Part shown: positions 33,268-46,080 of the stretch, piece after piece
Numbering within the stretch: the first letter of the stretch is position 1
Layout of the letters: each line of letters begins with the position of its first letter
Assembly: GCF_000365425.1 (NCBI RefSeq)
Contig: NZ_AQOV01000001.1
Coordinates: forward strand, 1,798,001-1,862,000
Origin: Methylomonas sp. MK1
GTDB taxonomy: Bacteria > Pseudomonadota > Gammaproteobacteria > Methylococcales > Methylomonadaceae
Length of the DNA: 64,000 nt
Direction: 5' to 3'
Position numbers and translations under genes: made by a program
Notes under the pieces: model-generated
Database searches by the model: none
Seen by the model: only the letters and a program-made list of their open reading frames with translations
Told to the model about the DNA's origin: nothing

Positions 33268-34332
33268 TCAGCTATTCAACACCTTGGTAGCCATTTCCGT
33301 ACCAATGACGCGGGCTTTGATTTTGGCGAATGCCGTGTCCCGCCCGGTCGAGGTGTCGTCTTCGAAAGGCGAAAAACCGCAGTCGTCGGTGGTGCCGAGC
33401 TGATGCAGCGGGATGTATTCGGCTGCGCGCAATACACGATCTCGCACTAATTCCGGTGCTTCCACGTCGGGGTTCAGCACGTCGATAACGCCAACAAACA
33501 CCCGTTGGTTAGGACGAATATTGTCCTTGATGATGGCTAAAACATGTTCCGGATCAGGTTCGCTGGCCATTTGCATATAGAAATTACCAGAATCGAGCTG
33601 GAACAAACTCGGCAGCAGGTCGGCGTAATCGACATCGGCGCTGTGTGTGGAATCATGGTCGCCGCCGGGACAGGTATGCACGCCGATGCGTTGGCGTTGT
33701 TCCGGGGTAAAGTGTGCCAATACCCGGTTGTTCAGGTCGATAAAGTTCCGCAGCAATTGCTTGGACGGATCGAGTTTGACCGACAAGCGGCCTTCGGTGA
33801 AATCGATTTGCACATGGTGTGCGCCTTGGTCCAAACAACCGCGAATATCCGCCACCGTTTCCTTGATCAAGTCATCGATAAAAGCGTCCCGCGAGTAGCC
33901 GTCTATGCCTTGTTGCGGATAAAGCAGGCTCAAGGCGGAAGCCGAAATCACCGCCTGCTTGAGTGGGCGCGTGGTGTAGCGTTTGGCGGCCTGCACAAAT
34001 GCGCCGGCATAGACGCCGTAGCGAAACGGTCCTGCGGTTAATCTGGGTAGTTGCCGGGTGTGGCCGTCGGCAAAAGGAATCACGATGCCGTCCTCGGCGA
34101 TGTTGTGCAAACCTTGTAATGGGTAGGTGGCGAAGCTGGACTTGGTCTGTTCGCCATCGGAGATCACCGGTGAACCCGTGTCCGCAAGACGTTGCAATGT
34201 GTCGCGTACCGCTTCGTCGTAGCAGGCATCGAGACGTTGTTGCGATAGGCTGCCCGCGCGAAAATCCCGCAGTGCTTCGAGCAATTGCGGCGGACGGGGA
34301 ATACTGCCTATGGATTCGGTGGGTATGGACAT
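33268..34332 (-). CDS. Cobalamin-independent methionine synthase (MetE C-domain-like) family protein
   Basis: 354 residues resembling the catalytic C-terminal barrel of MetE. It begins TESIGSIPRPPQLLEALRDF, has VISDGEQTKSSFATYP, then the zinc-site-like GVHTCPGGDHDSTHSAD, and ends LGTTDDCGFSPFEDD. It lacks the N-terminal half of MetE, so it belongs to the short methyltransferase group. It lies downstream of the NrtS-like gene on the same strand. In the arsenic context it could recycle or move methyl groups (inference). A CAGGAACGCGAC ribosome region precedes the start. Confidence 0.85.
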   Translation of the reverse strand: MSIPTESIGSIPRPPQLLEALRDFRAGSLSQQRLDACYDEAVRDTLQRLADTGSPVISDGEQTKSSFATYPLQGLHNIAEDGIVIPFADGHTRQLPRLTAGPFRYGVYAGAFVQAAKRYTTRPLKQAVISASALSLLYPQQGIDGYSRDAFIDDLIKETVADIRGCLDQGAHHVQIDFTEGRLSVKLDPSKQLLRNFIDLNNRVLAHFTPEQRQRIGVHTCPGGDHDSTHSADVDYADLLPSLFQLDSGNFYMQMASEPDPEHVLAIIKDNIRPNQRVFVGVIDVLNPDVEAPELVRDRVLRAAEYIPLHQLGTTDDCGFSPFEDDTSTGRDTAFAKIKARVIGTEMATKVLNS

Positions 34333-34398: not shown

Positions 34399-34698
34399 TT
34401 ACGGGTCTGTCCGCTGATGAGCAATTGCGGTTAAAGCGCCGTAAGTGGCCACCAGAAAAGGCACGCTATAGGTTAATAGCGCCTTGACCACATCGAGTCT
34501 TTGCATCGCCGGGTAATCCAAACACAGCAGGCCGAACACTGCTTGCGGTTGGTTGATCAAATTCAACAGGGTGCCGACGACTAAGGCGACCTTGCCGGAG
34601 CGGCGGTATATGCCTAGCCGGGTGGCAGTTCGGTGCAGATCAAGTAATTTTGCAAAGCAACTTCCTACTGCGTCATTGCAACCCATCCACTTAAACAT
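34399..34698 (-). CDS. NrtS-like small membrane transport protein
   Basis: 99 residues with two hydrophobic helices, KVALVVGTLLNLINQPQAVF and VVKALLTYSVPFLVATYGAL. This is the pattern of the small nitrate/nitrite transporter NrtS. An AGGTGA site six bases before the ATG supports the start. The N-terminal 30 residues are an extension with no clear homologue. Only 66 bases separate it from the MetE-like gene downstream. The substrate is uncertain; the family name comes from cyanobacterial and bacterial nitrate genes, and no nitrogen genes are nearby. Confidence 0.65.
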   Translation of the reverse strand: MFKWMGCNDAVGSCFAKLLDLHRTATRLGIYRRSGKVALVVGTLLNLINQPQAVFGLLCLDYPAMQRLDVVKALLTYSVPFLVATYGALTAIAHQRTDP

Positions 34699-34928
34699 CC
34701 AGGATCACCTCTAACAAAAATGTAGATTTTGAGCGCGCTGTACGGCAAAAATCAATGCGCATAAAGCCATGCAATTAAACGCTCTCGACAAAAACGCTAA
34801 GTCACGCTCTTTGTTCAAAATATATCATTAAGGTTATATTTTGTAAATTCTCGCACGTTTCATTCAATGCACAAAACCATCCAAGCAGGCGCTTTTAATT
34901 GCTTGCTTAAGCCCGGATAAGGCCAAAC

Positions 34929-35891
34929 TCAGAGCAAAGCTCCGCCGCAGCTGCTGCCTTGGCCGGCGGTGCAACCGTAACAATGGGCGGCGGTGGCTAT
35001 CGGTGCGTTTTGCAGTTGTGCGAGGGACAACTCGCTGATATGTAGTTTGGGTTTGGCTGCGGCGCCCAACGGTAAATCCAGCATCTGATTGAAATCGCAA
35101 TCGTAGACAGTGCCTTGCCAGTCAATACTGAGGGTATTCAGGCACATCAGGTTTTCAAGGTTGTCGGCGCGAAAGCTGTCTTTTAGTAAAGTCAGATACG
35201 ATTCGAAGCGACCATGGCTGATCAATGTGCTGCCGAAGCGCTGAATCGGCATGTTGGCGATGGCAAACAGGCGGTTGAAGACGATGCCGTAATGGTGTTG
35301 CAAGTGCTGTTTGTAAGCTTGTTCCAGTTGCTGCTGGTCGGGCGGCAACACAGCATCTTGCGGGTTGAAAACCAAATTAAGCTGTAAGGCGCTGTCCGGT
35401 TGACCATAACCCAAGCGGTTCAGGCGCTGTAAGGCTGCCAGACTGTCTTTGAACACGCCTTTGCCGCGTTGTTTGTCGACATTTTCCTGCAAATAACACG
35501 GTAAGGAAGCAACGATCTCTACCTCATGTTCCGCTAGAAAATCGGCCAAAAATCGATAACGTGGGTCTTCCAAAATGGTCAGATTGCATCTGTCTATGAC
35601 TTTAATACCCAATCGGCGCGCAGAACGAACCAGATACAAAAACTGCGGATGCATTTCCGGCGCACCGCCGGTCAAATCCAGCGCGTGAATGTTGGAGGCT
35701 TCGGCCAAAGCCAGCACCTGATCAACGGTTTCCCGACTCATCATCTCGGTACGCTTGGGGCCGGCGTTGACATGGCAGTGCACGCAACTCAAATTGCACA
35801 GGTAGCCGAGATTGATTTGCAACACTTCCAACGGCTTGCGGAATAGGGCCGGAAAGTCGCTGTCGATCAGCAGAGGTTTGGTGTCGTGCAT
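34929..35891 (-). CDS. arsS: Arsenosugar biosynthesis radical SAM protein ArsS
   Basis: 320 residues, TIGR04167 type. The radical SAM cluster is C32-NLS-C36-VH-C39 in INLGYLCNLSCVHCHVNAGP. It continues with HALDLTGGAPEMHP and the C-terminal DUF3641 domain with CLNTLSIDWQGTVYDCDFNQ and a glycine/cysteine tail CYGCTAGQGSSCGG. Some relatives carry selenocysteine in the tail; all positions here are ordinary Cys codons. Known role: transfer of a deoxyadenosyl group to methylated arsenic on the way to arsenosugars. Last gene of the bufferin-type operon, two bases after the DUF3047 gene, which is an unusual partnership. Confidence 0.92.
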   Translation of the reverse strand: MHDTKPLLIDSDFPALFRKPLEVLQINLGYLCNLSCVHCHVNAGPKRTEMMSRETVDQVLALAEASNIHALDLTGGAPEMHPQFLYLVRSARRLGIKVIDRCNLTILEDPRYRFLADFLAEHEVEIVASLPCYLQENVDKQRGKGVFKDSLAALQRLNRLGYGQPDSALQLNLVFNPQDAVLPPDQQQLEQAYKQHLQHHYGIVFNRLFAIANMPIQRFGSTLISHGRFESYLTLLKDSFRADNLENLMCLNTLSIDWQGTVYDCDFNQMLDLPLGAAAKPKLHISELSLAQLQNAPIATAAHCYGCTAGQGSSCGGALL

Positions 35892-35893
35892 GC

Positions 35894-36541
35894 TTAATCC
35901 TTGGAAAACCAGATGTCGCCGTAAGCGGCGCTAGCCTGTCCGCCGCTGTTGTCAGTATCGGTCATGATGGCGACGGCATCGATAGTGCTGATGTCTTCAC
36001 CGAATAGTTTCTTGAAATCGGCCCGGATATTACGCTTTTCGGTTTGCCAAACATTCAGTGAGGCTTCCGGCCCACGTAAAGCCAACATCATCGCATGATC
36101 ACCGGCAAAGGCATTGGGCCAGACGGTATCCTTTTTCGTGTTGCCGGCCCAGACATAATTGATGGCCTTGGTTTGCCAAAACGCCAGACCGCCTTTGACT
36201 ACCACATACACCCGCGCCGCGTAATCGTCGCCGGGTTTGCTTTGTTCGTTCAAGCCAGCCAAACGCTTGCCGATGCGCCACGACCAGTTCAGGAACGGGG
36301 TTTGTTCCAGATCGATATGCTGCTCTTTGAACATGCCGGAACCGGCGGCACGACTATCGGCCGTCAATACCGTCACGCCATCGATTGCTTGCAGACGGTA
36401 TAGGGTTTCGCCTTTGAAACTTTTATGCTCCCAACCCTCCAGGCGATTTTGGCTAAATTCGCCGATAGGCAGTTTATTATCGGCAACCGCCGCGTGATTC
36501 ATCGGTAGCATCGTTAAAAATATCCAGCAGAATTTTTTCAT
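35894..36541 (-). CDS. DUF3047 family exported protein
   Basis: 215 residues from ATG 36541, where a signal peptide starts (MKKFCWIFLTMLPMNHAAVA, cleaved near ADN). The rest is a beta-sandwich-like DUF3047 fold: IGEFSQNRLEGWEHKSFKGE, WSWRIGKRL, and AINYVWAGN, ending AAYGDIWFSKD. Predicted periplasmic. It begins right after the DoxX stop and ends two bases before arsS, so it is translated as part of the same operon. Function unknown; the fold could bind a ligand or carbohydrate. Confidence 0.82.
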   Translation of the reverse strand: MKKFCWIFLTMLPMNHAAVADNKLPIGEFSQNRLEGWEHKSFKGETLYRLQAIDGVTVLTADSRAAGSGMFKEQHIDLEQTPFLNWSWRIGKRLAGLNEQSKPGDDYAARVYVVVKGGLAFWQTKAINYVWAGNTKKDTVWPNAFAGDHAMMLALRGPEASLNVWQTEKRNIRADFKKLFGEDISTIDAVAIMTDTDNSGGQASAAYGDIWFSKD

Positions 36542-36543
36542 GT

Positions 36544-37098
36544 TTAAGCTGCTGTGCGTTGTTTCAACCAAGTATCAATAGCCAAGCCGCCACTGCCACT
36601 CAACAGCAGCGAACCGAGCATGAACAAATAAACCAACGGCAATTTGTAATTTCCATAACCTTGATCGGTAATAGCATAGCCTTTCCATAATTCGGCCAAT
36701 GTGTGCCATTCGGCGGGCCAATGTACGGCCGCGATGGCCACCACGGTCAACACCATTAGCGCCGCGCTAAAAAAGCGGGTCATGAATCCCAATATCAACG
36801 CAATCGGGGCGATGATCTCCAAGCCGGTGGCCAAGGTCCAGCTAAAATCCGTGGGCAATAAGCTGAACGGAAATGGGAAGCTCACATCGGCAAACCAGTT
36901 ATCGCCATGGAGTTTTTCCAGGCCGGCTTCGCCGAACTCGTAAGCCAACAACAGACGTAGAAAAATTGGCGCCAAGCCCTGTAAATTACTGTCGAAACAG
37001 CGAGAAAGCAGGCTGGGCATAGTGCATAGCCGCTCGATGCAGGAAGGAATCAGACAAGCTGTACAAGGATCTTGGGCGGATTTAGCGAGGTCGTTCAT
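36544..37098 (-). CDS. DoxX-family membrane protein of the bufferin operon (BufD-like)
   Basis: 184 residues from ATG 37098, preferred because GGAG lies eight bases upstream (the frame could start at 37119). After a short cysteine-containing N-terminus (DPCTACLIPSCIERLC) come four transmembrane helices of DoxX type, with LLAYEFGEAGLEKLHGDNWF in the first loop. DoxX proteins commonly sit beside DUF692 and DUF2063 genes; a redox or quinone-linked role is assumed for the family. The N-terminal Cys-x2-Cys pattern is unusual and might bind metal. Confidence 0.82.
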   Translation of the reverse strand: MNDLAKSAQDPCTACLIPSCIERLCTMPSLLSRCFDSNLQGLAPIFLRLLLAYEFGEAGLEKLHGDNWFADVSFPFPFSLLPTDFSWTLATGLEIIAPIALILGFMTRFFSAALMVLTVVAIAAVHWPAEWHTLAELWKGYAITDQGYGNYKLPLVYLFMLGSLLLSGSGGLAIDTWLKQRTAA

Positions 37099-37115
37099 CA
37101 GTGAGGCTCCAAAGT

Positions 37116-37877
37116 TCAAACCGGGCGAATATCGATGATCGCGCCCTGGCTATGTAGATCGGCCAGAATCTGCTGACCGAATTGGGTGAGTTCTAAAAAT
37201 TGCGCATCAGGGAGTTCGCTGCCTCTCATTGCTTGCAAGGCCTGTTGCCCAGTCAAGCCGTTATTTAACAGCAGGATCAGCTTGGCCGTGGCCAGATTCA
37301 GGGTTACAAACTGCACTTGATCCTCGCTATCGCGAAACCCAAGGACATGGGTAGCTGTTTCGGGCGGTTCACTCGGCAAAAAGTTTGGACCGATGTCCTG
37401 CACAGGCCAGTGGTAATGCAGCAATTGCATGACCGGTGCAAACACAGGCACATTGGCCAGCAATTCGGCATCAGACAACTGCTTTCGCGTGACCAGCTCG
37501 GCCTCGGCAATTGACAACTGTAATTCGATCCATTCGAACTGCGCCAGTTCGGCCAGAAACGGCCAATCATCGGGATGCTCACGTTCCTGTTGAAGATACT
37601 GCAAAAATTCGTCGGGAATCTGCCGGTAATAGGGTGTCAGGCAGCGATGTTTTGCAATGAAATCCAGCAGCAACGCCCGCCAGTCATCTTTGGATAAGAT
37701 GCTGTGAATCACCGGAAAACAGGCCGTCAGGCTCTCGTCGAATTTGTTGTAGAGCAGGTCGACATACACGGCCAGCCGCTCAGGGGCGAAGCCCACAGGT
37801 AGCTGCGCTGTTTGCGGTTGCCGCAAGTAATGCAGAAACTGCCGTTGCTGTTGTTGAAATGCGGGTGGCTGGCTCAT
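37116..37877 (-). CDS. DUF2063 partner protein of the MNIO enzyme (BufC-like)
   Basis: 253 residues. The N-terminal DUF2063 helical domain (FLHYLRQPQ, PERLAVYVDLLYNKFDESL, CFPVIHSIL) is followed by a smaller C-terminal domain with the HYHWPVQD pattern. Partner proteins of this type help DUF692 enzymes recognise their precursor peptide. Its start overlaps the MNIO gene by four bases, indicating a complex made in equal amounts. It ends 17 bases before the DoxX gene. Confidence 0.88.
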   Translation of the reverse strand: MSQPPAFQQQQRQFLHYLRQPQTAQLPVGFAPERLAVYVDLLYNKFDESLTACFPVIHSILSKDDWRALLLDFIAKHRCLTPYYRQIPDEFLQYLQQEREHPDDWPFLAELAQFEWIELQLSIAEAELVTRKQLSDAELLANVPVFAPVMQLLHYHWPVQDIGPNFLPSEPPETATHVLGFRDSEDQVQFVTLNLATAKLILLLNNGLTGQQALQAMRGSELPDAQFLELTQFGQQILADLHSQGAIIDIRPV

Positions 37878-38746
37878 GCCGCTACCTCGCTGATGCCTTG
37901 TGCGCTTCGGCCATGCCGATGGTTTTTTTGCAAGGCACGAATTCGTTCCACTTCGGTCAGTAACTCGGCCAATGGCGGAATGTTACTGTCGCGTTCCACC
38001 AAGGTCGGAAACTCGCCAAAGCGTCGATAGGCCTCGGCCAGCAACTCCCAAACAGGTTCGATGGTGTTCTGGCCGTGGGTGTCAATGATCAAGCCCGAAG
38101 GTTCCAGGTCGTGACCGGCCACATGCCCATAAACGATGCGCTCGCCGGGCAAACCGCGTAAAAACGCCACCGGATCGTAGCCATGGTTGACGCTGTTGAC
38201 GTAGATGTTGTTGACATCCAGATGCAAATAACAGTCGGCTTCGCTCAATACCGCATTGATAAAGCTTAGTTCGTCCATTTCCGCCTGCGGCGGCTGCACA
38301 TAGTAAGAAGCGTTTTCCAAAGCAATAGGCCGTTCCAGAATATCCTGAGTCTGGCGGATACGTCCGGCGACATGCCTGACCGCCTGCTCGGTAAGAGGGA
38401 TCGGATATAAGTCATAAAAGTGTCCCTCGTCACTGCAAAAGCTCAAATGCTCGGTGTACAGGGCAAAATCATGATGATCGAGAAACTGTTTCAGCTCGGC
38501 TAAAAATACGGTATCGAGCGGCGCGGGACCACCCAGCGACAAGGCCAAACCGTGCGCCACGAAACGGTGACGCTCGGTCAGGCTGCGAAACTGCTTACCG
38601 AGATGACCACCGACGCCCACCCAGTTTTCCGGCGAAACTTCGAAAAAATCTATACTGTCCGGTACGCCGGTTTGCAACGCGGGCAACAGCGCGCGCCGCA
38701 AACCTAAACCGGAACCTATAAGACCGAAAGGATTGGAAGTGGTCAT
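37874..38746 (-). CDS. MNIO family (DUF692) multinuclear iron peptide-modifying enzyme (BufB-like)
   Basis: 290 residues from ATG 38746, following GAGGGACC; the longer frame runs through the precursor gene. A TIM barrel with GLGLRRALLPALQTGVPDSI, DFFEVSPENW, YTEHLSFCSDEGHFYDL, IALENASYYV, YLHLDVNNIYVNSVNHGYDP and VERDSNIP, which hold the His/Asp/Glu iron ligands of the family. In characterised bufferin systems this enzyme converts precursor cysteines to thiooxazoles that bind copper. Lies 16 bases after the precursor gene and overlaps the DUF2063 gene. Confidence 0.92.
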   Translation of the reverse strand: MTTSNPFGLIGSGLGLRRALLPALQTGVPDSIDFFEVSPENWVGVGGHLGKQFRSLTERHRFVAHGLALSLGGPAPLDTVFLAELKQFLDHHDFALYTEHLSFCSDEGHFYDLYPIPLTEQAVRHVAGRIRQTQDILERPIALENASYYVQPPQAEMDELSFINAVLSEADCYLHLDVNNIYVNSVNHGYDPVAFLRGLPGERIVYGHVAGHDLEPSGLIIDTHGQNTIEPVWELLAEAYRRFGEFPTLVERDSNIPPLAELLTEVERIRALQKNHRHGRSAQGISEVAA

Positions 38747-38762: not shown

Positions 38763-39089
38763 TTATTTTGCGGTTTTACCGCTGCAACCACCTTCAGGCA
38801 TCTTGGCGCTACAGCCACCTTCAGGCATTTTGGCACTGCAACCGCCTTCGGCGCCTTTCATGTCCTTCATTTTGTTGGCACCGCATTTACCTTCGCCGCA
38901 TTTACCTTCCTTCATCTTGGCGCTGCAACCCCCTTCAGCAGATTTGCCGTCCGCCGCCGCCAATTGTTGGGCAGGATGGATACTGGACATGGCAAACGGA
39001 TTTTCGCCGGCTTGAATGATGGGGGCCGCGCTCAGTAAAGTCGAAGCCAAAGCACTGCTCAAAGTCAAAGATAAGGTTTTTTTGTTCAT
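38763..39089 (-). CDS. Bufferin-type RiPP precursor (BufA2-like), cysteine repeat protein
   Basis: 108 residues. The signal peptide (1-27, ending APIIQA) is followed by a linker and a repeat tail with six cysteines: two in EGKCG and four in EGGCS contexts, separated by lysine/methionine spacers (AKMPEGGCSAK). EGKCG is the modified motif of known bufferins; EGGCS is a variant. No other cysteines are present. GGAG lies before the start. Expected fate: modification by the MNIO enzyme, then export to the periplasm, where it would chelate copper or another thiophilic metal. An ECF-type promoter lies about 62 bases upstream. Confidence 0.88.
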   Translation of the reverse strand: MNKKTLSLTLSSALASTLLSAAPIIQAGENPFAMSSIHPAQQLAAADGKSAEGGCSAKMKEGKCGEGKCGANKMKDMKGAEGGCSAKMPEGGCSAKMPEGGCSGKTAK

Positions 39090-39150: not shown

Positions 39151-39178
39151 CAGTCGGAGTCAGTTTGAATTCCTTACA
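39151..39178 (-). promoter_or_regulatory. ECF sigma promoter candidate for the bufferin-arsS operon
   Basis: Read on the minus strand: TGTAAGG (39178-39172), 15-base spacer, CGACTG (39156-39151), followed by ATGG. The same pair of boxes precedes three other transcription units in this window. It is about 62 bases before the bufA start. Confidence 0.7.
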
Positions 39179-39197
39179 AATTTTTTTCGATGCTTTC

Positions 39198-40499
39198 TTA
39201 GCATAATGCCCGTGCCAAGAACCCCATGCCCGGCGTAGGCTTGCCAAACTCGTGCCTGATGTTTGTCTCGTGTTCCCGTAGTAGCATGAACCCGTTTGCA
39301 TTTAGTAAGTCTGTGAGATAGCGGTTACTGTGACTGTAACGGCCACTGGTATTGAGTTGATAACCGAGTGGGACCTCAACCGAGCTAGTCTGTTCGACGG
39401 TGAAGCAAAACGTCCCTAACGGCGACAATGCCTGTCGGACCAATACGAAAATCTCGCTTAGGTCGCCAAAATAAACCAGGGTGTCGGCCATTGTTATCAA
39501 ATCAAACGCTTGCTGTTTCCTTGTCAGATAACCCGTCAGTTCCGACTCTACCAAATCGTCGTAAAGCGCTCTTTCCGCCGCCTTGCCAAGCATGCGCGAC
39601 GAAATATCTACGCCCGTGAGCAGACGTGCGTAAGGTTTTAATACTGGCGCGCACAGCCCCGTACCGCAGCCACCGTCGAGCACCGACAGATTTGCATTCG
39701 CCATCAAGCAGTCATTCAGCAAGCTACAGACCATATCGGGACCGCAATACCCGAGATTACCGACCAGTTTGCTATCGAAATTTTCAGCTATGTCGTCAAA
39801 TAGACTGATCAGATAACGATCCGAGGCTTTAGTCGGGATGTCTTGACCGGTGCATGCGACAAGGTGATGTCTGGCCAACGGATTGTCGGGTTCGGCATCC
39901 AACCAGCTTCGATAACAGTCGGCGGCTTCGGCGACAAGTCCCAGCCGATAGTAAGCAATGCCTAGCATCTTCAAGGGTTTGTCGGTCAGAGGTGGCTGCA
40001 CATATGCTCGGCAAGCGAAAAAAGAAGACTCTTCCACTTTGTTTTGTTCCGCCAGCAGCGCAGCCAAGTTGTTTAGCGCGGGCACGAAATTCGGACTATG
40101 ACTGACTGCATGTCGATAAGCTGTTTCCGCCTCGGGCAACTCATTTAGCCGGTGCAGCACCGACCCCAAATTGTTCCAGAGATTGGCATCGGTAGCGTTC
40201 AATTCAAGCGCGGCGGAAAACGCTTGGCGCGCCTCGGCGAAACGTCCGTTTTCCGTGAGAATGTTCCCCAGATCGTTGTAACGTTCCGGGCTGGATGCAT
40301 CTAGTTGCAGGGCACGCAAAATCATCTCGATAGATTCCGCTGTATTTCCCTGCTGATGCAAGACTACGCCGAGATAGTGCAAAGCTTCTACATGATCCGG
40401 GTCGGCGGCAAGCATTTCACGGTAAGCGATGGCGGCATCGACAATTTCACCGGCCACGTGCTTTGCCAATGCTAAATCAAAGACTGTTTGATTTTTCAA
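39198..40499 (-). CDS. TPR-repeat SAM-dependent methyltransferase
   Basis: 433 residues. Residues 1-215 form about six tetratricopeptide repeats (ALHYLGVVLHQQGNTAESIE, NDLGNILTENGRFAEARQAF, NNLGSVLHRLNELPEAETAY). Residues 220-433 are a class I methyltransferase domain with motif I LSVLDGGCGTGL, D in LTGVDISSRML and LITMADTLVYFG. The TPR part should bind a protein or peptide partner. An ECF-type promoter shared with the bufferin operon lies upstream. The target could be a peptide or an arsenic compound, but nothing in the sequence decides. Confidence 0.87.
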   Translation of the reverse strand: MKNQTVFDLALAKHVAGEIVDAAIAYREMLAADPDHVEALHYLGVVLHQQGNTAESIEMILRALQLDASSPERYNDLGNILTENGRFAEARQAFSAALELNATDANLWNNLGSVLHRLNELPEAETAYRHAVSHSPNFVPALNNLAALLAEQNKVEESSFFACRAYVQPPLTDKPLKMLGIAYYRLGLVAEAADCYRSWLDAEPDNPLARHHLVACTGQDIPTKASDRYLISLFDDIAENFDSKLVGNLGYCGPDMVCSLLNDCLMANANLSVLDGGCGTGLCAPVLKPYARLLTGVDISSRMLGKAAERALYDDLVESELTGYLTRKQQAFDLITMADTLVYFGDLSEIFVLVRQALSPLGTFCFTVEQTSSVEVPLGYQLNTSGRYSHSNRYLTDLLNANGFMLLREHETNIRHEFGKPTPGMGFLARALC

Positions 40500-40590
40500 G
40501 AGACTTCACCCAAGTTTGATGCGCTATTAATAAAAGAAGTAATCCTATCGCTGGAGGTTTAACGGATTAAGTTAGCAACAGGGCATCTAT

Positions 40591-40618
40591 CAGTCGCATC
40601 CCGGTCAAAATCCTTACA
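40591..40618 (-). promoter_or_regulatory. ECF sigma promoter candidate for the TPR-methyltransferase
   Basis: Minus strand: TGTAAGG (40618-40612), 15-base spacer, CGACTG (40596-40591), followed by ATAG. Nearly identical to the bufA promoter, including spacing and the bases after CGACTG. Confidence 0.7.
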
Positions 40619-40643
40619 CAGGTCGTATAAAACCTGTGTAAGG
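40612..40643. promoter_or_regulatory. Palindrome joining two divergent ECF -35 boxes
   Basis: Perfect 12-bp arms CCTTACACAGGT and ACCTGTGTAAGG around the loop CGTATAAA. Each arm carries one TGTAAGG box, one facing left and one facing right, so the dyad symmetry is created by, and extends beyond, the two promoters. A regulator site for a second factor is possible. Confidence 0.6.
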
Positions 40644-40663
40644 AAATCATCCATTCTCACGAC
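40637..40663 (+). promoter_or_regulatory. ECF sigma promoter candidate for the HD-GYP gene
   Basis: Plus strand: TGTAAGG (40637-40643), 16-base spacer, CGAC (40660-40663), 45 bases before the ATG at 40709. Diverges from the TPR-methyltransferase promoter. Confidence 0.65.
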
Positions 40664-40708
40664 AAAGAAAAATTTACTGAATACAGTATTGCCAAACAGG
40701 AGATGCCG

Positions 40709-41617
40709 ATGAAATCAATACAAAATGCAAGTCACACTCAAAATTTGCTGCACACCTTGTATAGCATGGCGTTTCTGGTGGAAGCCCGCGATCCTTATAC
40801 CGGCGGGCATTTATGGCGGGTGTCGCAGTATTCGACGCGATTGGCATTGGCGTGCGGGTTTTCCAAACAGGACGCTGTGGTTGCTGGGTTGGGCGGCTTT
40901 TTACATGATTTGGGCAAAGTCGGCGTGCCGGACAGTATTCTTAATAATCCCGGCAAGCTTACCGATGCGGAATATGCCGTGATGAAAACCCATCCGGCCT
41001 TGGGCGCTCAAGTGTTAGAGGGGCATCCTTTGGCGCCGTTGGCAATGGATGCGGTGCTAAGTCATCATGAGCGCGTTGATGGCCGGGGCTATCCGTCCGG
41101 TTTAGGCGGTAGAAAGATTCCTGAATCCGCGCGTATCGTTGGGATTGCAGATGCCTTTGACGCGATGACCAGCACCCGGCCTTATCGGAAGGGTATGCCG
41201 GTGACAGCTGCCATCGAGCAGATCGAGATGAATTTGGACCAACAATTTGATCTGCATTTCGGTCGCCATTTCATCGAGTTGGCAAAATCCAATGAGCTGG
41301 ATGGCATTATCGGACATAGCGATAGCGGTATTCCGATGCGCGAATGCCCGGTGTGCGGACCGGTTGTAGTGGTGCATAAACACCAGAAAGCTGGTGACCA
41401 GGTGTTTTGCCGGGTATGTGGTAACGGCTTTGCTCTGGAAAAGCAGCAAGGCAAACTGACACTAAAACCAACGATGCAAAAAGGCAGTGCAGCGGATTTA
41501 CAAGCGCTGATTGATCATGATTTGCTGGCAAGACTACTGGATGAATCGCTGCCGTATTTGCCGGTCGATATTGGCAACGGCAAAAGCTGGCTGCGGCGGT
41601 TACGTGATCGGTTTTGA
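40709..41617 (+). CDS. HD-GYP domain phosphodiesterase with C-terminal zinc ribbon
   Basis: 302 residues from ATG 40709, which has AGGAG six bases upstream; the ATG at 40703 overlaps that site. The HD-GYP core has H66-D67 (GFLHDLGKVGVPD), H119-H120 and the GYP triplet at 127-129 (HHERVDGRGYP), so it should be an active cyclic-di-GMP phosphodiesterase. After the catalytic domain comes a four-cysteine zinc ribbon (CPVC and CRVC, near residues 210-238), then a short tail. No sensory input domain is seen. Probable member of the local ECF regulon. Confidence 0.88.
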   Translation: MKSIQNASHTQNLLHTLYSMAFLVEARDPYTGGHLWRVSQYSTRLALACGFSKQDAVVAGLGGFLHDLGKVGVPDSILNNPGKLTDAEYAVMKTHPALGAQVLEGHPLAPLAMDAVLSHHERVDGRGYPSGLGGRKIPESARIVGIADAFDAMTSTRPYRKGMPVTAAIEQIEMNLDQQFDLHFGRHFIELAKSNELDGIIGHSDSGIPMRECPVCGPVVVVHKHQKAGDQVFCRVCGNGFALEKQQGKLTLKPTMQKGSAADLQALIDHDLLARLLDESLPYLPVDIGNGKSWLRRLRDRF

Positions 41618-41629
41618 ATGAGGTCAGGA

Positions 41630-41851
41630 TCAGCCACAACACCCGGCCTGCTTGCCGTGCAACTGTATCGGCGGACAAGGGACGTCCCCATAGGAACAAA
41701 ATACGCAACAATCGCCGGGCTTAGGTTTTAACAGGCTATGACAGCCCTGGCATTCGTAAAACCACTGGCAGGCATCGCTGGGCATGACTTCGGTTTTGTG
41801 ATGTCCGCATTCCGGGCAGGTTAAAGTGGATTCCCAAATAACGTTATTCAT
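41630..41851 (-). CDS. Small cysteine-rich protein of the mer operon
   Basis: 73 residues with a CPECGHH zinc-ribbon start, CQWFYECQGC, and the signature GDCCVFCSYGDVPCPPIQ, ending CCG. This GDCCVFCSYG protein is often found as a hypothetical gene with mer-type transport genes. Eleven cysteines suggest metal binding. It overlaps the merP stop by ATGA, so it is the third gene of merT-merP. Function unknown; a mercury chaperone or scavenger is plausible. Confidence 0.78.
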   Translation of the reverse strand: MNNVIWESTLTCPECGHHKTEVMPSDACQWFYECQGCHSLLKPKPGDCCVFCSYGDVPCPPIQLHGKQAGCCG

Positions 41852-42135
41852 GGTCTTAACTCTTTGAGTGTGGCGGGATAGCCCGCATCGTCGGCGACGC
41901 GTAGCAACACTTCGACAGTGGTTTTAGCCGCGTCGAAATGCACAATGGCCTGACGACTATCGACGTTGAATGTCATGCCTGTGACGCCCGTGATCCGATT
42001 CAGCGCCATTTTTATCGTGACCGGACAGGCTGCACAGCTCATGCCGGGGATTGTGAGTACGGCGGTACGAGATTCGGCACAAACCGGTTGGATAACAGCG
42101 ACAGCCATCATCAACATAGCAAAGTATCGTTTCAT
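41848..42135 (-). CDS. merP: Periplasmic mercury-binding protein MerP
   Basis: 95 residues with a signal peptide (MKRYFAMLMMAVAVIQPVCA) and an HMA domain carrying GMSC34-AAC37-P, the mercury-binding pair, plus VDSRQAIVHFD and DAGYPATLKE. Length and order match MerP. It follows merT by nine bases and overlaps the cysteine-rich gene. MerP passes Hg(II) to MerT in the inner membrane. Confidence 0.88.
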   Translation of the reverse strand: MKRYFAMLMMAVAVIQPVCAESRTAVLTIPGMSCAACPVTIKMALNRITGVTGMTFNVDSRQAIVHFDAAKTTVEVLLRVADDAGYPATLKELRP

Positions 42136-42144
42136 GATGGTTGC

Positions 42145-42495
42145 CTAATAAAACCAGGGAAGAAGATAAGGAAAAATCAACGCCAGCAGAATCAACGTCG
42201 ATACGACCCAAAACAGGACAATGCTCTGTTTATGTTGTGGCGATTGAGAGCAGGATTCGCTGGCCTGGCAAGCGGGCATCGACCGGAAGATGCGTTGTCC
42301 TGCAAACAAAAGGGCAAGCAACGAAAGACCGATAAAAAAGGGCCGATAGGGTTCCAGCACCGTCAGATTGGCTAACCAAGCACCGCTGAAACCCAGTGCC
42401 ACTAACAATAGCGGTCCCAGGCAACACAGAGACGCCAGCGCGGCACCCAGTCCGCTAACGAACAAAAAGTAACGGCTGTAGGGCGATTCGGGCAT
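42145..42495 (-). CDS. merT: Mercury transport protein MerT
   Basis: 116 residues from ATG 42495, after a CAGGAAAATCC site; the longer frame would cross the mer promoter. Three hydrophobic helices, the first with C24-C25 (SLCCLGPLL), and a second cysteine pair in the loop (MPACQASESC). These are the MerT hallmarks. Controlled by the mer promoter upstream. No merA is present in the operon, so mercury taken in would need a reductase from elsewhere. Confidence 0.9.
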   Translation of the reverse strand: MPESPYSRYFLFVSGLGAALASLCCLGPLLLVALGFSGAWLANLTVLEPYRPFFIGLSLLALLFAGQRIFRSMPACQASESCSQSPQHKQSIVLFWVVSTLILLALIFPYLLPWFY

Positions 42496-42524
42496 GGATT
42501 TTCCTGGTTGATGAAACTGGGGTA

Positions 42525-42555
42525 AGCTTATTCCCGTAGTCAAGTACGGAGTCAA
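42525..42555 (-). promoter_or_regulatory. mer operator-promoter
   Basis: On the minus strand: -35 TTGACT (42555-42550), a 19-base spacer holding the dyad CCGTACTTGACTACGG (42549-42534), and -10 TAAGCT (42530-42525). The long 19-base spacer and the CCGTA/TACGG dyad are the classic MerR-activated arrangement. Confidence 0.9.
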
Positions 42556-42560
42556 TAGTA

Positions 42561-42974
42561 ATGAACAAAACTCTGGACAGTCTGACAATTGGCGGATTAG
42601 CCAAAGCGACGAGGATTGGTGTGGAAACGATACGCTTTTATCAGCGTCGGGGATTGTTGTCGGAACCAGATAGGCCGTTGGGCGGTATCCGGCGTTATGG
42701 TGCGACGGACGTTCAGCGGATCGTTTTCATCAAATCCGCGCAACGGTTGGGGTTCAGTCTTGAAGAAGTGGCCGACTTGCTAAAACTGGCGGACAGCCAA
42801 CATTGCGACGAGGCACGTACACTGGCAGAGCATAAACTCGAAGATGTCCAACAGCGCATCGCCGAGTTACGCCGTATGGAAATGGCCTTGCAGGATTTGA
42901 TCGGACGTTGCCAAACCAATCGGAACGAGGTGAGTTGTCCGTTGATTGCGGCGTTGCAAGTAAAGTACTACTGA
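42561..42974 (+). CDS. merR: Mercury-responsive regulator MerR
   Basis: 137 residues, very close to the MerR pattern. The helix-turn-helix is [20 protein letters not shown], then [19 protein letters not shown]. All three mercury ligands are present at the canonical positions C82 (SQHCDEA), C117 (GRCQTN) and C126 (VSCPLI). Divergent from merT, with the mer operator between them and overlapping its own leader, so it should repress and, with Hg(II), activate merTP. Confidence 0.93.
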
Positions 42975-43026
42975 GACGCGGCATAGCATCTATTCAGCGA
43001 CCATCATTCAAGCCTGAATGTGACAC

Positions 43027-43227
43027 TCAGTTTTTTTTATCCAAGCGCTTTTGCAATTGCACCGTATAACCAAGCGCGGCTTTGCGGATGAACTGGGATT
43101 GACTCTGGAAGTTACGGCAGCGGGAACACATCATCACATGCACTCCAATCGCCAGGCGTTCGCTAACGCTGAGTTTCTTGTCCAAGCCCTGTGACACTAG
43201 GGCGGTAATATCGCGACAACTACGCAT
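43027..43227 (-). CDS. Zinc-binding anti-sigma factor (zf-HC2)
   Basis: 66 residues from ATG 43227, with AAGGAG upstream; the start overlaps the sigma gene by eight bases. It carries the H-x3-C-x2-C zinc motif (HVMMCSRC) after a helical segment DITALVSQGLDKKLSVSERL. There is no membrane helix, so it is a soluble zinc anti-sigma of the ZAS type. Partner of the sigma factor directly upstream. Confidence 0.85.
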   Translation of the reverse strand: MRSCRDITALVSQGLDKKLSVSERLAIGVHVMMCSRCRNFQSQSQFIRKAALGYTVQLQKRLDKKN

Positions 43228-43819
43228 GATTATTCTCCTTTTTTGACTGATTGAACCAGCGAACTTCCAGGCATTCACGCAGCCGCAATCGGGCTCTATG
43301 CATGGTGACCCAATAATTGGCGTCGCTTAAGCCGGTTTCTCCGCAGACTTCGGATGCTTCCAGACCGACCAACTCGCGCAACATGAATACCTTGGCCATT
43401 TTCGGCGGTAGATTGTTTTGACAAGTTTCATAGATGGCCCAGAACTCCTGTTGCTTGAGGGCCGCCTCGGGATCGTTCCAGGTGGTCGGGCCACCAATCC
43501 AATGCCCATTACTCATGAAAAAATCGTCTTCGTCGACTTCATCTGCGTCGTTATCTATTTGATCGAACTCAGCGGTGACGACTTCACGTGCACTGCGCCG
43601 CCAGTGATCGGCGATCTTGTGTTTCAAAATGCCGATGAGCCAGGTGCGTAAGCCAGCCTTGCCTTCAAAATTGGCAGACGCTTGCCAAGCGGCCAGCAAG
43701 GTTTCTTGCACGGCGTCATCAGCCAGTTCAGTATCTTTTAGTTGCAGCAAGGCATAGCGATATAGCACCGGCCGATGTTCGGCCAATAATGCTTCGCTCA
43801 ATTGATTGGATGTGTTCAT
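43220..43819 (-). CDS. ECF-type RNA polymerase sigma factor
   Basis: 199 residues from ATG 43819, eight bases after the arsM stop. Region 2 is LYRYALLQLKDTELADDAVQETLLAAWQ with the WLIGILKHKIADHWRR core. An acidic linker (DNDADEVDEDDFF) follows, then region 4 LPPKMAKVFMLRELVGLEAS with GLSDANYWVTMHRARLRLRE. It likely recognises TGTAAGG-N15/16-CGAC, the motif before four units here including its own operon. Co-transcribed with arsM, the PiT transporter and its anti-sigma. The arsenic/copper context suggests a metal(loid) or oxidative signal. Confidence 0.9.
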   Translation of the reverse strand: MNTSNQLSEALLAEHRPVLYRYALLQLKDTELADDAVQETLLAAWQASANFEGKAGLRTWLIGILKHKIADHWRRSAREVVTAEFDQIDNDADEVDEDDFFMSNGHWIGGPTTWNDPEAALKQQEFWAIYETCQNNLPPKMAKVFMLRELVGLEASEVCGETGLSDANYWVTMHRARLRLRECLEVRWFNQSKKENNHA

Positions 43820-43827
43820 CTCGGCGC

Positions 43828-44871
43828 TCAGCAACATGCGCTATCAGCCTTGGCCGATTCGCTGCCGGGTCTGGGCGAGCAATCGAACAGTCCGAAATGC
43901 CGGGATTTGTCGCCCAACACTTGGAAGTGATCGCCATAGCGGCTGCCTGCCAGCATGTCGGCGGTGTTGCCGCACACCCTTAGTGGCCGGCCGGTCTCGA
44001 AATGATGATGATCGTCCAGATCGAAACTGTGCGGGTGTAGGTCGATAGTGCCCAAATAGACGGCGACTTGGCCGAAGTCTTCGCAACGATCTTCCAGAGG
44101 CATTCTAAAGGCGCGCACCGTGACTGAATCGAAGTTGACCATGCCGATTTTGGCGAACACCTCGGGGTCGTCGATGCTGATGGGATTTTGCTTGACCTTG
44201 CGGACATCGGGGCAGCCTAAGTCCTGCAAGATGCGCCGGAAGTCTTCCCAGTACAAAGCCCCGCCCAAACACTCGCCTAACAATACAGGGTCTTGGCGCA
44301 ATTCAATCGGGATACGGCGGTCGGCAAACACGTCGGAGAAATACAATTCGCCGCCCGGTTTTAACACTCGGAAGATTTCCGTCAACACTCTAGGCTTTTC
44401 CGGCGACAGATTAATGACGCAGTTAGAGACCACCACATCGATACTGTTATCGGCGATACCGACCGTGTGCAGGTTTTCGATATGACCATGTAAAAATTCA
44501 ACGTTGGCAAACCCGAAGCGCTCGGCGTGCCAGTCGCGATGACGCACAGCGACTTCCAACTGCTCGGGCGTCATATCCACGCCGATTACCCGGCCTGTCG
44601 GTCCGACCAGTTTCGACAGCAGATAACAGTCGCGGCCGGTGCCGCAGCCCAAATCCAGCACGGTCTTACCTTCCAGGGCCGGCGGCAACGGCGAACCACA
44701 ACCGTAAAACCGTTCCAATACTTCCGGATGCAGGCCGGCCAGCAAGGCTTTTAAATAGCTTGGCATGGCGTCGATACTGCAACAGGCGCTGGTTTTCAGG
44801 TCGTCGCTGGATTGCAGTACCTGACCGTAATAATGGCGAACCGATTCGCTGATTTCGATACTGGTAGTCAT
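43828..44871 (-). CDS. arsM: Arsenite S-adenosylmethionine methyltransferase ArsM
   Basis: 347 residues from ATG 44871 (MTTSIEISESVRHYYGQVLQ). SAM motif I TVLDLGCGTGRD and post-motif VIGVDMTPEQL are present. Conserved cysteines occur in KTSACCSID, FYGCGSP, VVSNCVINLS and LGECLGGALYW, and the protein ends SACC. It methylates As(III) stepwise to mono-, di- and trimethyl forms and feeds arsenosugar synthesis via ArsS. It lies between the PiT transporter (20-base gap) and the sigma factor, in an operon with an ECF-type promoter. Confidence 0.92.
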   Translation of the reverse strand: MTTSIEISESVRHYYGQVLQSSDDLKTSACCSIDAMPSYLKALLAGLHPEVLERFYGCGSPLPPALEGKTVLDLGCGTGRDCYLLSKLVGPTGRVIGVDMTPEQLEVAVRHRDWHAERFGFANVEFLHGHIENLHTVGIADNSIDVVVSNCVINLSPEKPRVLTEIFRVLKPGGELYFSDVFADRRIPIELRQDPVLLGECLGGALYWEDFRRILQDLGCPDVRKVKQNPISIDDPEVFAKIGMVNFDSVTVRAFRMPLEDRCEDFGQVAVYLGTIDLHPHSFDLDDHHHFETGRPLRVCGNTADMLAGSRYGDHFQVLGDKSRHFGLFDCSPRPGSESAKADSACC

Positions 44872-44891
44872 GAGAGCTCTCGTATTATTTA

Positions 44892-46016
44892 TTATTGAAG
44901 ATAGGCGCTTAGGTAGTATGAGATTGCGGCGGAACAGACAGCCGCACACGGCAAGGTCAACAGCCAGGATAAGGCAATCGACGTGATCACGCCTGAATTG
45001 GCCTTGCCGCTGACCAAACCAATGCCGAATAATGAACCTACCGAAACATGGGTAGTGGAGACTGGCATGCCAAGCTTGCTGGCAAAAATGACTAACAGTG
45101 CGGTGACCAGATTTGCCGATAAACCCTGTTCATGCGTAATGGTGGTGATTTTATGACTCATGGTTTCCGCCACCCGCCGCGCATTGAGCACGCCGCCGAG
45201 CAGCATGGCCAACGCCACCAGGATGATGATCCATTGCAAATCAAAACCGGGGGCCAGCAATAACAAGGCGGCAATTTTCGGCGTGTCGTTCAGGCCTCGA
45301 GCAAAGCAAACCGCGCCGGCGCTGCAAAAATGGAGTCCGTCTCGCAGGCGCTCAAGATTAAAGCCCAAAACCAGGCTAGATTGTCGCTCGGCGCAAGCCT
45401 CTTGACGATCAAGCGTTAGAGACGGGACGATTGCCGAATTGATTGCCAGGGTCATATTGACGTTACTGGCCAGCGCCAGACTTTCCGGGTTTTCAATGCA
45501 TAAACACAGGTTGTTAGTTAGTTGCCTATGGTTACGCCACATACTCAGACCTCGATACAACAAGCCGGCCAATAATAACGCCACAAACGGACTCAATAGC
45601 AATGGCAGCACGAAGTTGCTCAGCAACGGTGCCAGACTGATATTGCCGGATGTCGCTAATAAGGTGCTACCCGCCATCGCGCCTAGTAAAGCGTGGGTCG
45701 TGGAAATCGGAAAGCCATAACGCGTCGCCAGAATCACCGTCATTCCAGCACCACCCGCGACGGCAATCATGAATGGCAGAGAATGTATCAATTCGTCCGG
45801 CGTCAAGCCTTTGCCGGAAAATTTAACGAGCAAAGTCTGAGCTAAGAACAGGGCAGTAAGCGAACCGGCCAATGTCGTTAGCGTCGCCCAGGTCAGTGCT
45901 TGCCGAAAGTTCGCGGTGCCGCTACCGAACAAACTCGCCACACCCTTGAAGTTATCATTGGCACCGTTGGCATAGGCCAGAAAGCAAACGCTGATGAATA
46001 AAATACTGGTGAGCAT
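44892..46016 (-). CDS. PiT family inorganic phosphate (arsenate) transporter
   Basis: 374 residues with the two PiT repeats: GANDNFKGVASLFGSG and PISTTHALLGAMAGS in the first, ARGLNDTPKIAALLLL and PVSTTHVSVGSLFGIG in the second. About ten transmembrane helices and a soluble loop near residue 180-220. An AGGAGG site precedes the ATG. PiT carriers take up metal-phosphate and usually arsenate too. First gene of the PiT-arsM-sigma-anti-sigma operon. Its coupling to arsM suggests deliberate arsenate/phosphate handling, but direction and substrate are inferred. Confidence 0.88.
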   Translation of the reverse strand: MLTSILFISVCFLAYANGANDNFKGVASLFGSGTANFRQALTWATLTTLAGSLTALFLAQTLLVKFSGKGLTPDELIHSLPFMIAVAGGAGMTVILATRYGFPISTTHALLGAMAGSTLLATSGNISLAPLLSNFVLPLLLSPFVALLLAGLLYRGLSMWRNHRQLTNNLCLCIENPESLALASNVNMTLAINSAIVPSLTLDRQEACAERQSSLVLGFNLERLRDGLHFCSAGAVCFARGLNDTPKIAALLLLAPGFDLQWIIILVALAMLLGGVLNARRVAETMSHKITTITHEQGLSANLVTALLVIFASKLGMPVSTTHVSVGSLFGIGLVSGKANSGVITSIALSWLLTLPCAAVCSAAISYYLSAYLQ

Positions 46017-46053
46017 GAAAAACCTCCTGGATTACGTCGACTAGTTGATCTAA

Positions 46054-46080
46054 GTCGTTAGGAGAGGATCAAACCTTACA
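46054..46080 (-). promoter_or_regulatory. ECF sigma promoter candidate for the PiT-arsM-sigma operon
   Basis: Minus strand: TGTAAGG (46080-46074), 16-base spacer, CGAC (46057-46054), followed by TTAG, 37 bases before the PiT start. Implies that the sigma factor activates its own operon. Confidence 0.68.

Follow-up and report, generated by a model that had tools for sequence, protein, structure and literature searches.

Four predicted promoters of one ECF sigma factor link copper-peptide, arsenic, phosphate and signalling genes in Methylomonas sp. MK1

Control of an hvf-type operon by an extracytoplasmic function (ECF) sigma factor with a zinc anti-sigma protein is already known from Neisseria (PMC2893595; for this and the other papers cited, statements refer to the excerpts drawn on). 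The N. meningitidis sigmaE consensus is GTMAGBWTT-N12/13-CGTCTAAH, inhibition of the sigma factor by the anti-sigma MseR was shown experimentally, and oxidants leave sigmaE expression unchanged in meningococci (PMC2893595). In the gonococcus, the operon with this gene order contains NGO1945, a named MNIO partner, and sigma and NrsF genes have been reported in Buf1 clusters (PMC12452194). In Haemophilus influenzae, the ECF sigma factor RpoE2, described as closest to neisserial SigE, is inhibited in reporter tests by the 67-residue cytoplasmic zinc anti-sigma HrsE, and hypochlorite or H2O2 raises the expression of rpoE2 (PMC7907618). The oxazolin/captophorin peptides are copper-associated thiooxazoles with evidence for a role in copper detoxification (PMC13097082, PMC12452194). 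Here we analyse a stretch of 64,000 nucleotides from Methylomonas sp. MK1 (contig NZ_AQOV01000001.1; hereafter the window), in which four copies of the motif TGTAAGG-N15/16-CGAC are very probably promoters of a single TIGR02943-type ECF sigma factor encoded among their target genes.

The motif was found exactly four times in the window, at 39153-39178 (-), 40593-40618 (-), 40637-40663 (+) and 46054-46080 (-), each time ahead of a gene, while 100 dinucleotide shuffles gave a mean of 0.08 matches and none reached four. The four places named in an earlier reading of the letters (the sequence-only reading) were thus borne out, with no match elsewhere in the window, and so were its -10 details, CGACT occurring in three of the four sites and CGACTGAT being common to two. 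The sites show the same -35 element and spacing as those of meningococcal sigmaE (PMC2893595), and a simple sigma-70 scan returned no site ahead of any of the four genes. One site heads a minus-strand run from 46080 that comprises PiT, arsM, the sigma factor and its anti-sigma, and another heads a minus-strand run from 39178 with hvfA, hvfB, hvfC, hvfX, a DUF3047 gene and arsS, whose ends overlap or abut from hvfB on. The remaining two stand before the divergent TPR-methyltransferase and HD-GYP genes (Table 1). A perfect 13-bp inverted repeat, TCCTTACACAGGT / ACCTGTGTAAGGA, lies at 40611-40623 / 40632-40644 with a spacer of 8 bp, and its arms (40611-40644) hold the -35 elements of these two divergent promoters.

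Sixty-one genomes, 37 of them from the same genus (that of the window included), were searched for an orthologue of the sigma factor, and footprints were read in 26 fetched clusters and further stretches. Within the genus, an orthologue with at least 67% identity was present in 19 of the 37 genomes, a diverged one (49 and 51%) in two, and none at that level in 16. In 17 of these 19 genomes the sigma-bearing operon is preceded by the site, which stands before PiT in 13 (one case, G025, spans a contig break), before arsM in two and before the sigma gene in two; in the other two it lies between anti-sigma and hvfA. Every PiT gene detected in the stretches retrieved has the site upstream (13/13, own included), in fixed orientation and with 35-41 nucleotides between CGAC and the start codon. 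The same holds for the HD-GYP orthologues of the genus (6/6, own included; also in L212, a Methylobacter cluster), and for type-A hvfB (82-100% identity) all 10 of 10 (own included) have an exact site at a distance of 410-439 bases upstream from the match. Type-B hvfB (54-59% identity) had the site in none of 33 examined operons, three more type-B matches having no locus, and remote hvfB (33-38% identity) in none of six. Because type-B hvfB is found whether or not a genome carries the sigma gene, it provides a negative control from within the same genomes. The search of related genomes that the sequence-only reading had proposed as a check thus strongly favoured its interpretation, and a regulon under one sigma factor is well supported by these comparisons, which extend to a cluster of another genus.

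The predicted -35 element changes along with the sigma factor. In three of three loci where the latter has diverged to 49-52% identity (L072, L073, L166), the hvfA site reads TGTAACA-N15-CGACTGAT, and the same form was found upstream of two intermediate hvfB genes (68 and 72%). After repeats from overlapping loci had been dropped, 47 distinct sites remained; six without a query-set gene downstream were set aside and 41 kept, one of them within coding sequence in L212. TGTAAGG is followed by two A/T bases in 41/41 and by a third in 40/41; after CGAC, T comes first in 36/41 and A stands at the third base in 40/41. Bases outside the search pattern are therefore conserved too.

The motif was also detected within sister sigma genes. 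The loci of 80 relatives contained 55 CGAC-type matches against one for a reversed-pattern control, and 21 of the 55 lay inside the sigma gene; the assumption that all matches near sigma genes are promoters was dropped. The intragenic form, TGTAAGG-N15-CGAC, reads in the sense direction and lies some 100 bases short of the stop codon; the anti-sigma gene, and often the hvf operon too, comes shortly afterwards. Nearly all cases fall at the region-4 codons for C-K-E-x-x-I-x-x-T-N. A coding coincidence should vanish under synonymous codon shuffling. The motif occurred in 22 of 104 sigma genes, compared with 1.1 expected from local codon usage (200,000 simulations, largest value 8) and 2.7 expected under within-gene permutation (largest value 10), and in six of 29 genes of a fresh set against 0.63 expected, two of the six sharing one sequence; coding coincidence was thus rejected as its source. 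Synonymous spellings with the same -10 were found in two genes (TGCAAGG), one gene (TGTAAAG) and none (TGCAAAG). The peptide motif is encoded by 40 distinct genes of 133; in these, TGT spells Cys in 38 (14.5 expected), AAG spells Lys in 38 (18.2 expected) and codon 8 ends in G in all 40 (11.1 expected), in statistics that ignore the kinship of the genes and over motif loci spanning a GC content of 0.38-0.69.

Several points speak against an intragenic promoter: the base after CGAC, which belongs to the Thr codon, is mostly C there (33/40) and T in 4 genes against 5.7 expected, unlike at the external sites; one of the 22 matches (L233) is located elsewhere in the gene; and the repeated sequence in the fresh set and the kinship of the genes weigh on the same side. 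In nine loci (L074, L169, L172, L177, L180, L183, L189, L191, L228) hvfA follows about 0.4 kb downstream with no other exact site between. Given the strong constraint on its synonymous codons, the region-4 motif is likely to act within the gene, either as a promoter or as a place where the sigma factor binds, in front of the anti-sigma gene. We lean towards a history in which this sigma family bears its own recognition element in its own gene and the window lineage lost it, moving the sigma/anti-sigma pair into the PiT-arsM operon with promoters for each unit; the motif scan of the window found none in its sigma gene. If this holds, the anti-sigma and the target genes would be inducible apart from the sigma factor itself, and the zinc anti-sigma may sense Cu(I) and As(III) directly, as one thiol sensor for copper and arsenic. 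The intragenic motif was seen in L074, L075, L168, L169, L172, L174, L177, L180, L182-L184, L187, L189 and L191, and further in L195, L196, L199, L203, L212, L228, L241, L255, L258, L262, L264, L270 and L272.

Several points weigh against assigning the four sites to one sigma factor. The evidence for the regulon comes from sequence comparison. Over the whole genome (5.23 Mb), the motif with N15-16 gave 8 matches against 6 for a backward-read control, and with N14-17 it gave 12 against 9, so that enrichment by raw count was rejected. The sequence-only reading had named as a refuting result a motif no commoner here than elsewhere, which applies to the raw count but not to position: four of the eight N15-16 matches fall inside the 7 kb of the window cluster. 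Since the raw count is background-like, the signal lies in position, all four sites heading genes within 7 kb. The other four head no plausible gene, three being antisense inside open reading frames (ORFs) of 238-568 amino acids and one having only a 60-amino acid ORF downstream, as judged by simple ORF calls; only in the window's four is TGTAAGG followed by three A/T bases, a trait that the search did not ask for. A stricter pattern, GTAAGG-N15/16-CGWCTNA, matched four times against three for its control, with three matches in the cluster and the fourth antisense in a 305-amino acid ORF. The HD-GYP site of the window genome fails it because the sequence there reads CGACA, lacking the T after CGAC.

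Further points on the same side concern the targets and the kinship of the sigma factor. The gene pair msrAB is the classic target in Neisseria and Haemophilus, and no msrAB site is among the eight genome matches, msrAB itself not having been searched for. The relation of the window sigma to the neisserial and Haemophilus factors is argued from promoter, anti-sigma residues, neighbouring genes and what is generally known of the family. The -10 element of meningococcal sigmaE is CGTC (PMC2893595), one base apart from the CGAC of the window, and in the loci of the 80 relatives CGTC-type sites number one against the 55 of CGAC type, CGAC being fixed by construction of the search pattern. The TPR-methyltransferase, whose site was seen only in G000 and G026 among the examined loci, is the weakest member, and HD-GYP orthologues (E 1e-60) occur in only 6 of 21 sigma-bearing genomes. 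PiT (E 1e-20, a search without a positive control alongside) and HD-GYP (E 1e-60, own genome as positive control) were each found in 0 of 16 sigma-less genomes; these co-occurrence tests are weak because of gene linkage, and PiT, HD-GYP and sigma may occur together because a single gene cluster travels, not because they are co-regulated.

Among the alternatives, it is rather unlikely that true membership is confined to the hvf and PiT-arsM-sigma operons and that duplication of a divergent promoter left the TPR-methyltransferase and HD-GYP sites as side products. The restriction of the TPR-methyltransferase site to two genomes, the position of both -35 elements in the arms of one inverted repeat in G000 and the CGACA of the HD-GYP site in both G000 and G026 would agree with such an origin. 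However, HD-GYP has its own, different site in 4/4 genomes of clusters in which no TPR gene was found, as well as in L212, and in L166 a 60% HD-GYP relative is located between hvfC and hvfX. We consider it quite improbable that the motif is the site of another regulator (an activator, a repressor or another ECF sigma), with the TIGR02943 sigma merely travelling along. The ten weaker sigma-model matches in the genome and the perfect repeat joining the divergent -35 elements are compatible with that view, whereas the two-block shape with its 15/16 spacing, the fixed orientation and distance to the PiT start codon, the fit to the published sigmaE consensus, the change of the -35 with sigma divergence and the DNA-level constraint on the same motif inside sister sigma genes all argue against it. 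A chance cluster or a copied functionless segment, agreeable to the raw genome count near control, was rejected as next to impossible given the shuffles, spacers that vary between sites while the blocks stay constant, and the retention of the sites upstream of orthologues, both in 19 genomes including the window's own and in another genus.

Table 1. Predicted promoters and genes of the proposed regulon (positions in the window).
Feature	Position	Strand	Sequence or supporting match
Predicted sigma promoter, hvfA operon	39152..39178	-	TGTAAGG-N15-CGACTGAT
Predicted sigma promoter, TPR-methyltransferase gene	40592..40618	-	TGTAAGG-N15-CGACT
Predicted sigma promoter, HD-GYP gene	40637..40663	+	TGTAAGG-N16-CGACA
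Predicted sigma promoter, PiT-arsM-sigma operon	46053..46080	-	TGTAAGG-N16-CGACTTA
PiT family phosphate transporter	44892..46016	-	PF01384 215 bits
arsM, arsenite methyltransferase	43828..44871	-	PDB 5evj match E 1e-111
ECF sigma factor, TIGR02943 family	43220..43837	-	220.7 bits vs cutoff 162.2
66-residue zinc anti-sigma	43027..43227	-	NF052368 77 vs cutoff 50
hvfA, Cys-rich precursor of a ribosomally synthesized and post-translationally modified peptide (EGKCG/oxazolin type)	38763..39089	-	NF050137 24.0 bits vs cutoff 19.5
hvfB, MNIO maturase	37874..38746	-	NF003818 403 bits vs cutoff 360
hvfC, RRE partner with NGO1945_C domain	37116..37877	-	NF050145 249.5 vs 142; PF22106 70.7 bits
hvfX, DoxX-type maturation protein	36544..37119	-	NF050144 126 vs cutoff 80
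DUF3047 protein, overlaps hvfX	35894..36571	-	PF11249
arsS, arsenosugar biosynthesis radical S-adenosylmethionine enzyme, last of hvf run	34929..35891	-	TIGR04167 462.5 vs 300
TPR-repeat S-adenosylmethionine methyltransferase	39198..40499	-	Pfam search
HD-GYP type cyclic di-GMP phosphodiesterase, predicted	40703..41617	+	PF13487 110 bits

The earlier placing of a sigma factor with its zinc anti-sigma at the end of the PiT-arsM operon agrees with the family assignments. The sigma factor is the only one of the TIGR02943 family above cutoff in the genome, and this type is probably also that of neisserial sigmaE and Haemophilus RpoE2. The anti-sigma gene follows directly, with an overlap of 8 nucleotides, and its product contains the putative zinc-site residues Cys4, His30, Cys34 and Cys37 in the pattern C-X25-H-X3-C-X2-C (ZAS motif). 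For arsM, the start at 44871 is inferred, the ORF being open to 44949, and the NCBIfam arsM models stay below their cutoffs, the best PDB match being an arsenite methyltransferase. The region 41848-42974, between the HD-GYP and anti-sigma genes, holds MerP/MerT-like genes (-) and a MerR-like regulator (+), the latter named from sequence, and carries no motif; a MerP relative (64%) lies beside HD-GYP in G026, and none was seen in the other HD-GYP-bearing clusters.

The HvfA/oxazolin (captophorin) gene set is complete, precursor, HvfB, HvfC and HvfX all scoring above their NCBIfam cutoffs. The hvfA product probably bears a signal peptide, and the hvfB start at 38746 is inferred from an ORF open to 38836. 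The sequence-only reading had called the first gene bufA: a peptide precursor is indeed encoded, but the bufferin name was abandoned, since a Pfam search of 38763-39089 gave no match, DUF2282 included, and NF050137 is above cutoff. Its arsenosugar link stood as far as the presence of arsS is concerned, but that gene ends the hvf run and not the PiT operon. The HD-GYP translation reads HDLGK and HHERVDGRGYP, with zinc-ribbon-like cysteines at the C-terminus. After arsS, on the same strand, lie an NrtS-like small protein (34399-34698) and a Meth_synt_2 methionine-synthase-like protein (33268-34332), preceded by a sigma-70-like site at 34847; in L063, L180 and L212 a Meth_synt_2 relative likewise lies close to the sigma gene.

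Further members emerged in other genomes. In G014 and G008, whose fetched clusters yielded no PiT, arsM has the site in front, and so do a PstS-like phosphate-binding protein (194 bits with TIGR02136, short of the cutoff of 206.6) and a VTT-domain pyridine-nucleotide oxidoreductase, the G008 copies (L148/L150) being assigned by N-terminal sequence. In L212, from a Methylobacter metagenome-assembled genome of another genus with a sigma only 39% identical, sites head four units: oxidoreductase-PstS-like-permease-permease-ATPase, arsM-sigma-anti-sigma, HD-GYP and hvfABCX. The gene order in L174 is sigma, anti-sigma, PiT-like, arsS and arsM, and arsS lies within about 2 kb after the sigma gene in L076, L185, L186 and L190 (arsS was confirmed by TIGR04167 for L076 and L174). 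G039, which belongs to another family, has sites upstream of arsS (L079) and of a DUF2282 bufferin with its BufB (L156). Judged by sequence, the site also precedes a DUF3047 relative in G009 (L151) and a DoxX-like protein in G015, and a DUF3047 gene comes after the sigma/anti-sigma pair in L064 and L068. Phosphate-type transport, arsenic genes and an MNIO peptide thus reappear under one sigma with some parts exchanged. This favours function over the inheritance of a single block and links, in several lineages, the sigma factor of the peptide with arsenic methylation or arsenosugar genes and phosphate-type transport.

Two features of G039 deserve separate mention. At L156:8791-9057 the motif precedes a secreted-looking NPCAxx-repeat peptide, possibly a further MNIO-type precursor, beside a DUF6969 protein and the DUF2282 bufferin operon. 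The TIGR02943 sigma gene (L079, G039:C1:2296687-2297246) appears split in two overlapping frames, perhaps by a frameshift or an assembly error, and promoter-like sites are kept.

On these grounds we propose a model in which, in unstressed cells, the 66-residue zinc anti-sigma would hold the sigma factor, as relatives of the protein suggest. Attack on its Cys/His zinc site, whether by Cu(I), by As(III) or by an oxidant (hypochlorite, for example), would free the sigma factor, which would start transcription at four places. Its own PiT-arsM-sigma-anti-sigma operon would be switched on in a positive loop with a built-in brake, together with hvfABCX-DUF3047-arsS, yielding a copper-binding thiooxazole peptide and the arsenosugar radical enzyme, the HD-GYP phosphodiesterase and, in the window strain and one relative, the TPR-methyltransferase. 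The HD-GYP enzyme would lower cyclic di-GMP and might favour dispersal, and phosphate uptake through the regulon would compete with arsenate. As to the trigger, Cu(I) or As(III) is our tentative preference, held at somewhat less than even confidence, because the targets are a copper-binding peptide, arsenite methylation, an arsenosugar step and phosphate uptake. The model gives a copper metallophore peptide a defined, testable regulon and predicts that a single switch co-induces this peptide with the enzymes of arsenic methylation and arsenosugar synthesis, with a phosphate transporter and with a signalling enzyme. Whether this sigma family responds to an oxidant, to copper or to arsenic could then be tested directly in a free-living bacterium, and the purpose of bacterial arsenosugars could be addressed.

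Finally, we compared the locus with the described systems. Caulobacter crescentus SigF is said to control an operon of MNIO (DUF692)/DUF2282 type. Like the window pair, SigF/NrsF joins an ECF sigma with its own regulator over a small metal-stress regulon, but it differs in its anti-sigma NrsF (cysteines C131 and C181) and its bufferin-type precursor; the terms MNIO (DUF692) and DUF2282 both occur in PMC3511200, and its excerpts do not mention arsenic genes. The oxazolin/captophorin clusters share with the window an HvfA-type precursor, MNIO, an RRE partner and DoxX (PMC13097082, PMC12452194), and the string 'arsen' is absent from the main text of both papers. H. influenzae RpoE2/HrsE is likewise an ECF sigma with a short zinc anti-sigma (67 against 66 residues in the window), but it controls msrAB and a DMT transporter with very limited autoregulation, and arsenic genes are not mentioned in the excerpts of PMC7907618.

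A literature search, confined to open-access papers and mostly to the level of search listings, found no intragenic sigma promoter of the TIGR02943 family and no regulon with ArsM/ArsS, phosphate transport and HD-GYP. One of the closest systems is that of N. meningitidis sigmaE (NMB2144), which is encoded in an autoregulated operon with the DoxX-like NMB2140 (the window hvf run has a DoxX-type protein too) and whose anti-sigma MseR (NMB2145) has the four zinc-site residues at positions identical to those of the window protein (PMC2893595). In Neisseria the sigma gene stands inside the hvf-type operon and msrAB is a target, whereas in the window it belongs to the PiT-arsM operon. The earlier statement that no described regulon of this composition was known therefore does not extend to sigma control of the hvf operon; what is new is the addition of ArsM, ArsS, a phosphate transporter and HD-GYP to the sigma-hvf theme.

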